Positions 59,214 through 64,000 of a stretch of 64,000 nt of DNA are shown here, one piece after another. Under the pieces are notes generated by a model that had not been told where the DNA came from, ran no database searches, and worked only from the letters and a program-made list of their open reading frames with translations. The DNA is taken from positions 1 through 64,000 of the forward strand of contig NZ_JAMOHY010000014.1 of NCBI RefSeq assembly GCF_024448695.1, in the 5' to 3' direction. This stretch comes from Stutzerimonas stutzeri. GTDB taxonomy: Bacteria > Pseudomonadota > Gammaproteobacteria > Pseudomonadales > Pseudomonadaceae. Position 1 is the stretch's first letter. Every line of letters starts with the position of its first letter. Made by a program: the position numbers and the translations under genes.

Positions 59214-59429
59214 CGGGCACCTCTGGTTTCTGAGCGCAGCCGCTTCGACTGCCAGGCTTTATCAGCCTAGCCAAGTCACGCCCGGGAAGGTTGATATCAA
59301 ACAGGAAAGGCGTGGCTTGAAGATGGCAATTGCCTCTGGTTTTGTAACAAAAAACACCGCTGGCCTGGCGACTGGCAGGGGGAGAGGCCCTGTGAAAGAC
59401 TAGGCACCTCATTCAGCCGATAGTTGCCC

Positions 59430-60326
59430 ATGCCCGCACTTGATGACCCTGTGATCGACCGCTTCCTCGATGCCCTGTGGCTGGAAAAGGGCCTGTCGGA
59501 CAATACCCGTGCCGCTTATCGCAGCGACCTGGCGTTGTTCAACGGCTGGCTCGACGAGCGCGGTGTGCGGCTGGTGGAGGCAGGCCGCGAGGTGATTCTT
59601 GATCATCTTGCCTGGCGGCTGGCCAACGACTACAAGGCGCGCTCGACCGCACGCTTGCTGTCGGGGTTGCGCGGGTTTTATCGGTTTCTGTTGCGCGAGG
59701 GGGCGATTGCGGTCGATCCGACCCTGCGCGTTGAAATGCCGCGTCTTGGTCGTCCACTGCCCAAGGCTCTTTCCGAGGCGGATGTGGAAGCCCTGCTGGC
59801 CGCGCCGGATACCGGCGATCCGCTGGGCCTGCGTGATCGCGCCATGCTGGAAGTGCTTTATGCCAGCGGGTTGCGCGTGACTGAGCTGATCAGTCTGCGT
59901 CTTGAGCAGATCAACCCACGCCAGGGCGTGCTGCGCACCTTCGGCAAGGGCAACAAGGAGCGGCTGGTGCCGCTGGGTGATGAGGCCATGCACTGGCTGG
60001 AGCGCTACCTGCGCCAGGGGCGTGGACTGCTGCTGGGCGACAAGGTCAGCGATGTGGTGTTTCCCAGCCTGCGCGGCGACCAGATGACGCGCCAGACCTT
60101 CTGGCACCGGATCAAGCTGCACGCCAGGACGGCAGGGGTCGCCTCATCGATCTCGCCGCACACGCTGCGTCATGCCTTCGCCACACACTTGCTCAACCAC
60201 GGCGCGGACCTGCGCACCGTGCAGCTGCTGCTTGGTCATGCCGACCTGTCCACCACGCAGATCTACACCCATATCGCCCGTGCGCGACTGCAGGAACTGC
60301 ACGCGAAGCATCACCCGCGCGGGTGA
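59430..60326 (+). CDS. xerD: Site-specific tyrosine recombinase XerD
   Basis: A 298-residue tyrosine recombinase. The N-terminal SAM-like domain (FLDALWLEKGLSDNTRAAYR) precedes the catalytic domain with Arg149, Lys173, His244, Arg247, His270 and Tyr279, all in place (SGLRVTEL, SPHTLRHAFATHLL, LLGHADLSTTQIYTH). With XerC it resolves chromosome dimers at dif under FtsK control. The length equals that of housekeeping XerD. ATG 59430 is used. No attachment sites or phage genes flank it, so it is not a mobile-element integrase. Confidence 0.95.
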   Translation: MPALDDPVIDRFLDALWLEKGLSDNTRAAYRSDLALFNGWLDERGVRLVEAGREVILDHLAWRLANDYKARSTARLLSGLRGFYRFLLREGAIAVDPTLRVEMPRLGRPLPKALSEADVEALLAAPDTGDPLGLRDRAMLEVLYASGLRVTELISLRLEQINPRQGVLRTFGKGNKERLVPLGDEAMHWLERYLRQGRGLLLGDKVSDVVFPSLRGDQMTRQTFWHRIKLHARTAGVASSISPHTLRHAFATHLLNHGADLRTVQLLLGHADLSTTQIYTHIARARLQELHAKHHPRG

Positions 60327-60339: not shown

Positions 60340-60426
60340 GTGGGAGCGGATTTGGCCGCGATCTTTGTTCTTCTGCTCCATACATGAGGGCTGTCGCTAA
60401 GAGCTTCGCGGACAAGTCCGCTCCTA
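60340..60426. repeat. BIME: two REP elements in opposite orientation
   Basis: A forward REP (GTGGGAGCGGATTTGGCCGCGA) starts at 60340. A reversed one follows at 60401-60426; read on the minus strand it is GTAGGAGCGGACTTGTCCGC then GAAGCTC, the standard Pseudomonas REP. The core GCGGAC-AA-GTCCGC is a perfect hairpin. It fills the gap between convergent xerD and mksB and is the probable terminator for both. Confidence 0.88.
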
Positions 60427-60455: not shown

Positions 60456-63287
60456 TCAGGCGGGCTCGCCGATGACCGCCGATTTCTGGCTTGTTGAGAC
60501 TGATGCTTCCCGGCGCTCGATGAATTTCCAGTCCGCCTCGTCGATATAGATGCCGGAGGGTCCGCTGCCGCCTTCCAGGTCGATGGCCACGTGCGCCGAG
60601 ACCTGAGGCTTCACCGAGGCGAGAATCGGCACGAAGCCCAGCTGCAGGCTGGTTTCGATCAGCGCCTGCTGGTTGCGCTCGTCGATGTCCGCCGCCTCGT
60701 CGAGGTAGTAGGGCAGGCGGATGCGCCCGGCCTGCTCGCGGTCCATCAGGTGCAGCAGCAGGTACATGTTGGTCAGCGCCTTGATGGTCATGGTGGTGCC
60801 GTTGGACGCCGCGCCGTCGATGTCGGTGTGGATCACCGGCTGACCGCCGACCTTGGTGATTTCGAACGCCAATTCGAACAGGTCCTTCAGGCCCAGTTGG
60901 TTGTTGTTCGCCGCCACCAGCCGCGCCAGGTACTCCTTGGCTTCCTCGTTCTTCGCATCCTGCTCGACCGATTGCGAGAGGTCGAACACCGACAGCGTTT
61001 CGCCTTCCTCGTACTGGCCGGCGCTGTGGATGATCTGGTCGATGTGCTTGAGCGCATCCTTGTTCGGCGCCAGCACGATGCGGAAGCTCGCCAGGTTGGA
61101 AACCTGGCGCTTGTTGATCTCGCGATTGAACAGCGCGAGCTGGTGTTCCAGGCTCTCGTAGTCGCTGCGGATATTGCGCAGCGTCCGGGCGATGTCGGTG
61201 ACCGCGGCGCGACGGGCCTTGGCCAGGGTCAGCGCCTCGTCCTGGCGATGGGCGTAGGCGTTGACCAAGAGCTGCAGGCGGCGCTCGGGATCTTCCTCGC
61301 TGTCGAACTTGGCCACGCCTTTCAGGCGCACCTGGGCATACAGCGCCTCGATCTGGCCATCGACGCGCTGCAGCGCCTGCCAGCTGTCCTGGTAGTCGTT
61401 GAGCAGCGGCAGCAGGTTGTCCAGCGAGTCGTCCACCGGGTCCATGAACGGCGTGCCGAACGGCAGGTTGGCCGGCAGCAGCTGGCGACGACGTAGGGCG
61501 TCTTCCAGCGTGCGCTCCTTGGCTTCCAGGTCGGCTAGCTGACGGCCGACCAGCTGCAGCTTGGCGGACAGGTGCTGCACGCGCTCGGCGAAGGCGTCAC
61601 TGGTGCGCTTGAGTTCTTCCTGGGCGGCTTCGGCCTGGGCCAGCTGTTCCAGCTTGGCCGGCTCCTCGGCGGCCAAAGTCTGGCTGCGGCGGAAGTCTTC
61701 CAGCGCTTTCTGCGCATCGAGTACGGCCTGATACAGCGCCTCGGCCTGGGCCTTGCTCGCGGCGCGGTCGACGGCCACCGCATGCTGGGTCTTGAGCTGC
61801 TTGAGTTCGCGTTCGAGGCGGTCCTTCTGGTCACGCAGGGCGGCACGGTCGGCCAGTGCCTGCAGGGCCGGCGGCTCGATCTGCGAAAGGTCGATGGACA
61901 AGCCGGGTACGGAGAAGGTGTCGCCCTTGAAGCGATCCAGCACCACCTCCACGGCCTTGACCCAGTCATCGCCTTCGGCAGTGATGCCTTTTTCGCCTAG
62001 CGGCAGGCTGAACAGCTGGCCATTGAACAGGCGCATCAGGCGGTCGACGTCGGCCTGGGAGAATTCCTCGCGCAGCCGCGAGTAGCTGTTGTTGTCGGCG
62101 TGATCGAGCTGCTGCTTGACCGACTTCAGACGCTTCTCCAGATCGCGCAGGCGCTCATCCAGATCCTCGCTGGAGAACTGCCGCGACTGCGCCAGCGCAC
62201 CGGCCAGCTCGTCGTGGGCGTCCTTGGCGGCGAGCAGCTGCTGCTCCAGCACGCGGGCGTCCTCGACCAGGGCAAAGCGGTTCTTCAACACCGCCAGCTC
62301 GCCGAGCCAGCGCTGGGCTTCGCTGATCTCGCGTTCCAGGCGCATCAGCTCGGACGTGCTGCCGCGCTGCTCGTGCTGCAGGCCATCCTGCTCGCGGCGG
62401 TAGTGCTCGGCCTGGATCACCAGCTCTTCCTTGCGCGCATCGGCGTAGTCGTGCCAGGTGCCCAGCAGGTTGTCGAGCAGCGGCGAGAGGCGATGCAGCT
62501 TGCCGCGCAGCAGCTCGCGCTGGGCTACGCCAGCGGCCAGGGCCTCGACCAGCGGGCCGGCGGCCACCAGCGCCTGGTAGTCCTGCTCCATGCGGCGCAC
62601 GTCGCGGAAAGCTTCCTCGGTAGCGGCGATGTAGTCGACGCTGCCCGAGCGCAGGCTGTGTTCGAAGGCGTCGAGGAACAGCTGCTTCAATTTGGCAGCC
62701 GTGATCTCCCTCATATGCAGCAGGTTGATAAACAGCGCGCGGAAGGTCTTCAGGCTCTGCTCGCTGGTCGAGCGCAGCGGGATCAGCGTCATGTCCAGCG
62801 GAATCGAGGTATGCCCGCCGACCAGCAGCCGGCGCAGCTCATCCGGCTTGGCCTCGTAGGCCTTGATGCCGGCACGTTCGAGGTTGGCGAACAGCTCGCG
62901 CTGGCGCAGGCAGGTGCCGTTCTGCTGGTAATGATCCAGATCCAGCGCACCCTGGTAGACGAAGAACTGGTGACCGAAACCGCCGCCGGGGCCGCGCCCG
63001 GCCACACCGATCACATGCGGGCCGTGGGGCAGCATCACCTCGACGAGGATGTAGCTGGTGTCGCTGGCGAAATAGAACTTGCGCGACTGCTCCAGGCTGT
63101 ACTTGCCGAAGCTCATGTCCGACATGCGCGCCAGGATCGGGAACTGCAGCGCGTTGATCGAGGCCGACTTGCCGAGGTTGTTGGCGCCATAGACCGACAG
63201 CGGGTTCTCCAGCGGGAAGATGCCGAGGCTGTAGCCGGCGGTGTTCAGCAGGGCGAAGCGGCGGATGCCGTAGCGTTCCTGGCTCAT
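60456..63287 (-). CDS. mksB: MksB, SMC-like ATPase of the MksBEF condensin
   Basis: A 943-residue SMC-like ATPase. Walker A is GANNLGKS (34-41), and Walker B is YYLDEAADID (860-869), with a signature-like SNGTTMTIK before it. Long heptad-rich coiled coils with a central part of about 60 residues (hinge) lie between. This architecture, shorter than MukB (about 1,486), is that of MksB in Pseudomonas, which condenses and helps segregate the chromosome with kleisin MksF and MksE. Its ATG overlaps the mksE stop by ATGA. The gene order mksF-mksE-mksB is standard. No MksG/JetD gene follows. Confidence 0.9.
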   Translation of the reverse strand: MSQERYGIRRFALLNTAGYSLGIFPLENPLSVYGANNLGKSASINALQFPILARMSDMSFGKYSLEQSRKFYFASDTSYILVEVMLPHGPHVIGVAGRGPGGGFGHQFFVYQGALDLDHYQQNGTCLRQRELFANLERAGIKAYEAKPDELRRLLVGGHTSIPLDMTLIPLRSTSEQSLKTFRALFINLLHMREITAAKLKQLFLDAFEHSLRSGSVDYIAATEEAFRDVRRMEQDYQALVAAGPLVEALAAGVAQRELLRGKLHRLSPLLDNLLGTWHDYADARKEELVIQAEHYRREQDGLQHEQRGSTSELMRLEREISEAQRWLGELAVLKNRFALVEDARVLEQQLLAAKDAHDELAGALAQSRQFSSEDLDERLRDLEKRLKSVKQQLDHADNNSYSRLREEFSQADVDRLMRLFNGQLFSLPLGEKGITAEGDDWVKAVEVVLDRFKGDTFSVPGLSIDLSQIEPPALQALADRAALRDQKDRLERELKQLKTQHAVAVDRAASKAQAEALYQAVLDAQKALEDFRRSQTLAAEEPAKLEQLAQAEAAQEELKRTSDAFAERVQHLSAKLQLVGRQLADLEAKERTLEDALRRRQLLPANLPFGTPFMDPVDDSLDNLLPLLNDYQDSWQALQRVDGQIEALYAQVRLKGVAKFDSEEDPERRLQLLVNAYAHRQDEALTLAKARRAAVTDIARTLRNIRSDYESLEHQLALFNREINKRQVSNLASFRIVLAPNKDALKHIDQIIHSAGQYEEGETLSVFDLSQSVEQDAKNEEAKEYLARLVAANNNQLGLKDLFELAFEITKVGGQPVIHTDIDGAASNGTTMTIKALTNMYLLLHLMDREQAGRIRLPYYLDEAADIDERNQQALIETSLQLGFVPILASVKPQVSAHVAIDLEGGSGPSGIYIDEADWKFIERREASVSTSQKSAVIGEPA

Positions 63288-63985
63288 GCTTCAAGCTCCT
63301 TTTCAGCGGCGATGGCGCGAGCCAGGGCGTCTTCTTCGGATTCTTCGGTGGGGTCTTCGGTGGGTTCGTCGATGAGGATGATTTCGTCCTCGTCTTCTTC
63401 CTCGGCAATCAGCTGCGGCGTCGGCAGCGGCAGGTCGCTGCTGTGCAGGCTGGCGGCCAGATCCCGGTCCTGCTGCACCGACAGGCAGACATCGAGGAAG
63501 CGATGCATCGGCGGCAGGAAGCGGTAGACGCCGTTGCTGTCCTCGGCGAAGCCCAGCTGCGTCAGGCGGCGGATGACTTTCTCTTCCAGTTCTTCCTGGG
63601 TGGTGACTTCGGCCTGCAGGAACAGGTCGCGGTACTTGTCCAGCAACGCCGGCAGTTCATCGCGACCGAGGCTGCCACCGTCGAGCACGGCCAGCGGGTC
63701 GCGGCCCTGGTCCGCCAGGTGCTCGACGAGGATGAAGGTGAACAGCGCCAGGCGCTGGGCGGTCTTGTTCACCTGCGCGCCCATCTGCTCGGGGACGAAG
63801 TAGTAGAAGCCGCGCGGATCGCAGACCAGCTCGAAGCCGAGCGCCTTGAACAGTGCGCGGTACTGGTCCTGCATGTTCGACAGCTGCGCGTAGGGCTCCG
63901 GCTCGCTGCGCGACAGGTGATAGCCCTTGAACAGCTCGCGGAAGATCGGCGCCAGCTGGGTCATTTCCTTGAGGTCTATGTTCAT
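63284..63985 (-). CDS. mksE: MksE, accessory subunit of the MksBEF condensin
   Basis: A 233-residue protein resembling MukE/MksE: two winged-helix-like domains (LAPIFRELFKGYHLSRSEPEPYAQLS; LTQLGFAEDSNGVYRFLPPMHRFLDVCL) and a very acidic, disordered C-terminus (EEEDEDEIILIDEPTEDPTEE). MksE binds the kleisin MksF and shapes DNA interaction. The start ATG 63985 overlaps the stop of the upstream gene (ATGA). It is directly coupled to mksB. Confidence 0.87.
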   Translation of the reverse strand: MNIDLKEMTQLAPIFRELFKGYHLSRSEPEPYAQLSNMQDQYRALFKALGFELVCDPRGFYYFVPEQMGAQVNKTAQRLALFTFILVEHLADQGRDPLAVLDGGSLGRDELPALLDKYRDLFLQAEVTTQEELEEKVIRRLTQLGFAEDSNGVYRFLPPMHRFLDVCLSVQQDRDLAASLHSSDLPLPTPQLIAEEEDEDEIILIDEPTEDPTEESEEDALARAIAAEKELEA

Positions 63986-64000
63986 AGATATGGCTCTGTC
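63982..64000 (-). CDS. Partial: last codons of upstream gene, presumably mksF
   Basis: On the minus strand one frame reads ...TEPYL followed by a TGA that overlaps the mksE ATG as ATGA. Only five codons are inside the window, so sequence alone cannot identify it; mksF is expected from the conserved order. Position and coupling are consistent with the kleisin MksF. Confidence 0.45.

Follow-up and report, generated by a model that had tools for sequence, protein, structure and literature searches.

The mksBEF locus

The window analyzed here, a stretch of 64,000 nucleotides from Stutzerimonas stutzeri (contig NZ_JAMOHY010000014.1, positions 1 to 64,000), ends in two genes of an MksBEF condensin, mksB and mksE (Table 1). 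The third gene of the set, mksF, lies beyond the window on the same contig, which extends to position 76925. It stands directly upstream of mksE on the same strand, separated from it by a gap of 219 bp (contig 63986–64204; L001:3987–4205), and mksE and mksB overlap by 4 bp. The likely start of mksF is residue 40 of the longest frame, where the alignment to NF040857 begins; from this start onwards, an ortholog matching over at least 85% of the length was found in 79 of 80 orthologous loci, which are the best 80 of at least 586 related loci. All three subunits score above the NCBIfam equivalog cut-offs. The labels of two of these models are swapped relative to the literature: NF040859, named “MksF”, fits the 943-aa SMC ATPase, and NF040857, named “MksB”, fits the third subunit in the kleisin position. 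The section of PMC10123090 that concerns this point treats MksB as the protein expected to bear Walker A. The genome (3.70 Mb, 63 contigs) contains one MksE copy and also encodes both SMC (full, 1178 bits) and ScpA (114 bits).

Table 1. Features of the mksBEF locus and its downstream neighbor (window coordinates unless marked as contig).
Feature	Position	Strand	Description
mksB	60456–63287	minus	SMC-like ATPase subunit, 943 aa; open frame; NF040859 1991 bits (cut-off 1900)
mksB Walker A, GANNLGKS	63165–63188	minus	Position derived from residue numbers
mksB Walker B, LPYYLDE	60696–60716	minus	Position derived from residue numbers
mksE	63284–63985	minus	KITE-type subunit, 233 aa; PF21980 5.8e-42; NF040858 448 bits (cut-off 400)
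mksF	contig 64205–65446 (L001:4206–5447)	minus	Third subunit, 413 aa; outside the window, complete; NF040857 856 bits (cut-off 750)
Bacterial interspersed mosaic element (BIME)	60341–60426		Inverted pair of repetitive extragenic palindromic (REP)-like sequences between mksB and xerD
xerD	59424–60326	plus	Convergent neighbor, no part of the system; TIGR02225 382 bits (cut-off 330)

The three genes are under purifying selection. Internal stops were absent over the matched stretch (match from residue 1, at least 85% of the length) in 80 mksB, 80 mksE and 79 mksF orthologs, and the median ratio of nonsynonymous to synonymous substitution rates (dN/dS) against the window was 0.13 for mksB, 0.19 for mksE and 0.13 for mksF, with possible saturation of synonymous sites in the more distant comparisons. 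All 81 aligned MksB sequences (81 of 81) share the same Walker A, signature-like and Walker B stretches. Eleven of the 13 nearest named loci (MksB 97–98% identical) belong to Stutzerimonas and two are titled Pseudomonas.

Search for a nuclease partner

Wadjet systems combine MksBEF-like proteins with a nuclease, JetD or MksG. A preliminary description of the window had placed mksB as the last gene, followed by a BIME and a convergent xerD and with no nuclease on the visible side, which gene calls, NCBIfam matches and counts of the REP pattern confirmed. It had left room for a nuclease gene beyond position 64000; there, mksF is complete and no nuclease precedes it. The jetD or mksG gene that would have spoken for defense was not found upstream of mksF, where divergent homologs of polyamine genes stand instead.

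The whole genome yielded 0 matches to JetD_C and DUF3322, with Corynebacterium glutamicum positive as control, and 0 to DUF7281, in a search that did detect it in 16 of 28 genomes or records. DUF2399 gave 0 matches in the genome, but also 0 in the control genomes, which makes this search uninformative. In the window, L001 and the 80 orthologous loci, we found no match to a JetD hidden Markov model (HMM) among 11,560 frames at E ≤ 10, none to a DUF7281 HMM at E ≤ 0.1 and none to the combined EN/DxD/LEQE motif. These loci include at least 3 kb of upstream sequence in 78 of 80 cases and at least 1 kb of downstream sequence in 75 of 80, and 69 of them end 2.5–5.5 kb after mksB. The JetD HMM was trained on 19 open reading frames, one of them short (L104) and one picked from two frames (L092). 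Strong matches were obtained in 17 of the 20 JetD loci fetched, 14 of these 17 coming from training genomes; six untrained loci gave three strong matches, two weak ones and one miss.

Relation to Wadjet systems of the Pseudomonadaceae

Among 298 genomes of the Pseudomonadaceae, MksE was detected in 229 and JetD_C in 53; matches of the MksE model extend to certain other Mks/Wadjet operons, and 10 of the 229 positives have weak matches alone (E above 1e-35). The corresponding numbers for 56 genomes of the same genus were 51 and 8. An MksE position was among the matches listed for 19 of the 53 genomes with JetD_C, and in 19 of 19 both genes were more than 10 kb apart or on different contigs (0 of 19 within 10 kb on one contig), a count in which draft assemblies could hide adjacency at contig ends.

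The JetC frames beside JetD in 15 Wadjet loci of the family measure 1105–1166 aa. Searching the 20 fetched JetD loci by phmmer, neither MksB nor MksF found a match at E ≤ 0.01; MksE found three (E 7e-7 to 8e-4). PADLOC models gave no JetA or JetC match to the subunits at E ≤ 0.001, while MksE met JetB models only at E 1e-4 to 6e-4 and MksB met LmuB/mad3 models (E 2e-4 to 6e-4). An hhalign comparison of MksB with a JetC alignment reached 60% probability, mostly over coiled coil, vs 40% for the reversed control and with a shallow MksB profile (Neff, the effective number of sequences, 1.1); it thus provided no evidence for direct relatedness of MksB and JetC. This alignment comprised 15 of the 20 loci and omitted L118, whose chosen frame has no Walker A, L128, for which no frame was selected, and the divergent L135–L137. 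Because close MksE–JetD_C pairs were not seen, the JetC frames are larger and MksB had no phmmer match, the Wadjets of the family look like systems separate from the core MksBEF, and the latter does not look like a Wadjet with a recent nuclease loss. Wadjet type I, or MksBEFG (JetABCD), shares with the locus the SMC–kleisin–KITE architecture and the gene order F-E-B, but differs in JetC size and in JetD/MksG, which was not found here. MukBEF of Escherichia coli is a KITE-type condensin as well, but Pfam assigns no Muk family to the three Mks proteins. MukB measures about 1500 aa.

Relatives with a likely DUF7281-type partner

A search of plasmids with MksB returned seven records, six of which (L138–L143, on plasmids or megaplasmids) contain full-length MksB relatives with 24–27% identity. 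In their layout, two genes of mksF and mksE size are followed by mksB and then by a fourth gene, here called X. MksE was recognized by PF21980 in four of the four loci tested (L139, L140, L141 and L143); the proteins in the mksF position reached no family cut-off and were assigned from their location and length. Two additional small genes precede mksB in L141, and the end of X is overlapped by another gene in L139, L141 and L142. The X protein is compact (231–336 aa). Five X proteins were scanned for Pfam DUF7281, which scored over the cut-off in three, below it in one and was absent from one (L141). The X protein of Salinibacter also came near the JetD_C cut-off (21.8 of 22 bits) and was the only one of five that PADLOC called JetD. 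Close to the plasmid copy of Salinibacter, but on the opposite strand, there is also a gene of the thermonuclease family.

A class-wide search with the MksB model matched 10 of 369 genomes, our own included, and operons of MksBEF with DUF7281 were seen on plasmids, in scattered Gammaproteobacteria and in Salinibacter. They belong to the same Mks subfamily as the locus (MksB frames of 922–962 aa, 24–29% identical over 902–920 positions) and differ from it in the TOPRIM-like gene that follows mksB, which was not found here. We defined an ingroup of 12 relatives (L138–L143, L145–L149 and L169, the last fetched for its DUF7281 match). PF23947 was present at E ≤ 0.001 in nine of them, all except L139, L141 and L145. 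With an HMM of our own, X was detected directly after mksB in 11 of the 12, all but L145 (10 of 11 without L169); eight of these 11 positives were training members, and the independent ones, L146, L148 and L169, matched at E 1e-80 to 1e-105.

Residues invariant in nine aligned X proteins (alignment A3) include E-N, D-Y-D, G and a C-terminal E. Compared by hhalign, X and the JetD C terminus matched with 73–87% probability (reversed controls 0.2–1%). The outgroup loci L150–L152 carry a similar gene before mksB, which matched X at 91–93% (0.1% reversed) and JetD at 30%; PF23947 was weak in one of these three genomes and gave no match in the other two. Alpha-glucosidase matches returned by a profile search of the PDB with alignment A3 were dismissed as chance. 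The conserved motifs, together with weak Top6A matches of related Stutzerimonas proteins, suggest that X, a putative nuclease, is TOPRIM-like. The natural partner of this Mks subfamily is likely a compact TOPRIM-like protein of the DUF7281 family and not a DUF3322/DUF2220 protein, an association that is new here; our literature search found no paper mentioning DUF7281, nor one on Stutzerimonas with condensin or on DUF3584 with Wadjet. The test proposed in the preliminary description, a look for a DUF3322/DUF2220 gene, was incomplete because the likely partner belongs to the DUF7281 family, which was not found in the genome either. A search limited to JetD, DUF3322 and DUF2220 was abandoned as too narrow after the DUF7281-type gene had been seen in the plasmid relatives.

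Phylogeny and probable loss of the partner gene

In the MksB tree, which includes 14 of the 81 core sequences, the core Pseudomonadaceae and genome G537 (L145) form a clade with a support of 100. G537, whose MksB is 47.5% identical and in whose genome no DUF7281 was found, is the closest nuclease-free relative. An SNase-like gene lies about 480 bp after its mksB (L145:5448–6311). Among the sampled loci, this is the sole clade without the partner gene. In the best tree, the clade branches from among relatives that have the gene, with supports of 23 and 45 at the inner nodes; the nested position was not accepted as established, as the alternative basal position was not rejected (approximately unbiased test, p 0.218). 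The partner gene was probably lost once, before the split of the Pseudomonadaceae and one sister lineage, G537. Such a single loss is simpler whether the clade is nested or basal, because the outgroup also carries the gene, with the caveat that its position in the outgroup operons differs (before mksB).

Interpretation of the locus

We estimate a probability of about 85% that the locus represents a complete, nuclease-free MksBEF condensin of the Pseudomonas aeruginosa type, which would act on its own chromosome and would not be expected to cut plasmids. The resemblance to P. aeruginosa MksBEF, drawn via NCBIfam equivalogs, comprises the same three subunits, the lack of a detected nuclease gene and the co-occurrence of SMC and ScpA; it differs in being a Stutzerimonas genome with xerD beside mksB. 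According to the relevant parts of PMC7485682, both condensins of P. aeruginosa organize and segregate the chromosome, MksB takes part in segregation, and joint inactivation of SMC, MksB and ParB is lethal. From these genetics and the conservation of the genes we infer a chromosomal role in Stutzerimonas: a dimer of the ATPase MksB, together with the kleisin MksF and the KITE subunits MksE, would be loaded on DNA, and ATP would power the bridging or extrusion of chromosomal loops alongside SMC-ScpAB. Anti-plasmid activity is predicted to be absent and plasmid cutting is not expected, because the TOPRIM-like partner of the subfamily appears to be gone. The housekeeping role favored in the preliminary description thus gains support from the nuclease-free locus and genome, from conservation and from the P. 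aeruginosa work.

Several observations weigh against this assignment. The JetD HMM misses distant forms, and the draft state of the assembly and possible nuclease families beyond those searched leave room for a nuclease elsewhere. Neighboring metabolic genes have lower median dN/dS values (0.05–0.09, in smaller sets of 21–54 loci). The AlphaFold models of MksB and MksF are of low confidence (mean predicted local distance difference test scores, pLDDT, of 56.2 and 55.9), and phmmer against PDB chains returned no solved relative for MksB and nothing useful for MksF. Finally, MksBEF seems dispensable, as four of the 56 genus genomes (G110, G172, G225 and G231; 99–100% complete) have no MksB or MksE match; G249, a genome of 73% completeness, likewise lacks MksE but shows a partial MksB.

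Each of the four genomes lacking MksB and MksE matches carries a strong DUF7281 match (169–180 bits), and the same search in seven MksE-positive genus genomes gave none in five and weak matches in two (28 and 20 bits). The DUF7281 gene is the fourth in a cluster (L165–L168, from G172, G225, G231 and G110, respectively) with an SMC-like frame of 1246–1272 aa and two smaller genes. Families were checked on L167 and partly on L165: in L167, Pfam identified the SMC-like protein as DUF3584, the second protein had a sub-threshold MksE match and the third (about 407 aa) reached no family cut-off. Three of the four SMC-like proteins are 94–96% identical and the fourth about 65%, so the clusters represent few independent events. 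Replacement of MksBEF by the DUF3584–DUF7281 cluster, or the reverse, is only a suggestion. The genes bordering the cluster look like pabB at one end and thrH/cysH/cysB at the opposite end.

Considered jointly, the results tilt towards a picture in which the MksBEF of the Pseudomonadaceae would be a domesticated defense machine. Its ancestral compact TOPRIM nuclease, of the DUF7281 family (about 230–340 aa, with conserved EN, DxD, G and LEQE) and not a two-domain JetD, would have been lost once on the stem of the Pseudomonadaceae and G537, and the MksBEF–DUF7281 operons, largely overlooked by the PADLOC models applied here, would constitute an undescribed Wadjet-like type used by plasmids against competing plasmids.

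We regard it as improbable that nuclease-free MksBEF, besides its role on the chromosome, restricts extrachromosomal DNA through compaction or silencing. Smc5/6 has been proposed, in a passage of PMC10586767, to compact circular viral DNA, and the JetD-like fourth gene in distant MksB relatives suggests a defense ancestry; however, nothing in the sequence supports such an activity, and this fourth gene is present in the six relatives found on plasmids. Less probable still is a plasmid-defense system in which MksBEF is joined in trans by a nuclease from another genomic locus. The 63-contig draft and the SNase-like gene of G537 could be cited for it, but it conflicts with the genome-wide lack of JetD_C, DUF3322 and DUF7281 matches and with the distances between JetD_C and MksE in the 19 family genomes for which both positions were listed. 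That the locus is what decay has left of an earlier Wadjet operon, as the missing nuclease might suggest by comparison with the distant relatives, is hardly credible and is contradicted by the data: all orthologs examined have open genes, dN/dS lies far below 1 and the ATPase motifs do not vary.

Calling the locus a typical Pseudomonas condensin keeps it from being filed as plasmid defense. Furthermore, the likely lost partner now bears the name of a family, DUF7281, and is retained in extant relatives; therefore, the switch from defense to housekeeping becomes testable through a comparison of related systems that have or lack the nuclease.

Genomic surroundings

The divergent genes upstream of mksF are homologs of nspC and of a carboxynorspermidine synthase gene, both below the NCBIfam cut-offs for those names. 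Further upstream follow a LeuA-type gene, a GNAT acetyltransferase, a gene of the glycosyltransferase-20 (trehalose-phosphate-synthase) family and a carbonic anhydrase. Downstream sequence of 10 kb was scanned in four orthologous loci; a ribosomal RNA operon lies about 3.9 kb downstream in L056, and none was seen in L004, L040 and L050. With one case in four, such operons were not established as the cause of the contig breaks after mksB.

A 21-base pattern taken from one REP copy of the BIME occurs in the window as the source copy and one more at three mismatches (0.00 expected from shuffles), and genome-wide in 23 copies at up to two mismatches, source copy included, vs 0 for the reversed pattern. 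Only one of the 80 other loci (L003) has xerD adjoining mksB, with at least 1 kb of downstream sequence available in 75, and the mksB–xerD gap of L003 carries, as judged by eye, a different repeat. On account of this rare adjacency and the different repeat, the mksB–xerD junction looks like a recent local rearrangement. The 219-bp gap between mksF and mksE contains an inverted repeat and, as judged by eye, repeat-like units, and its length differs among orthologs.

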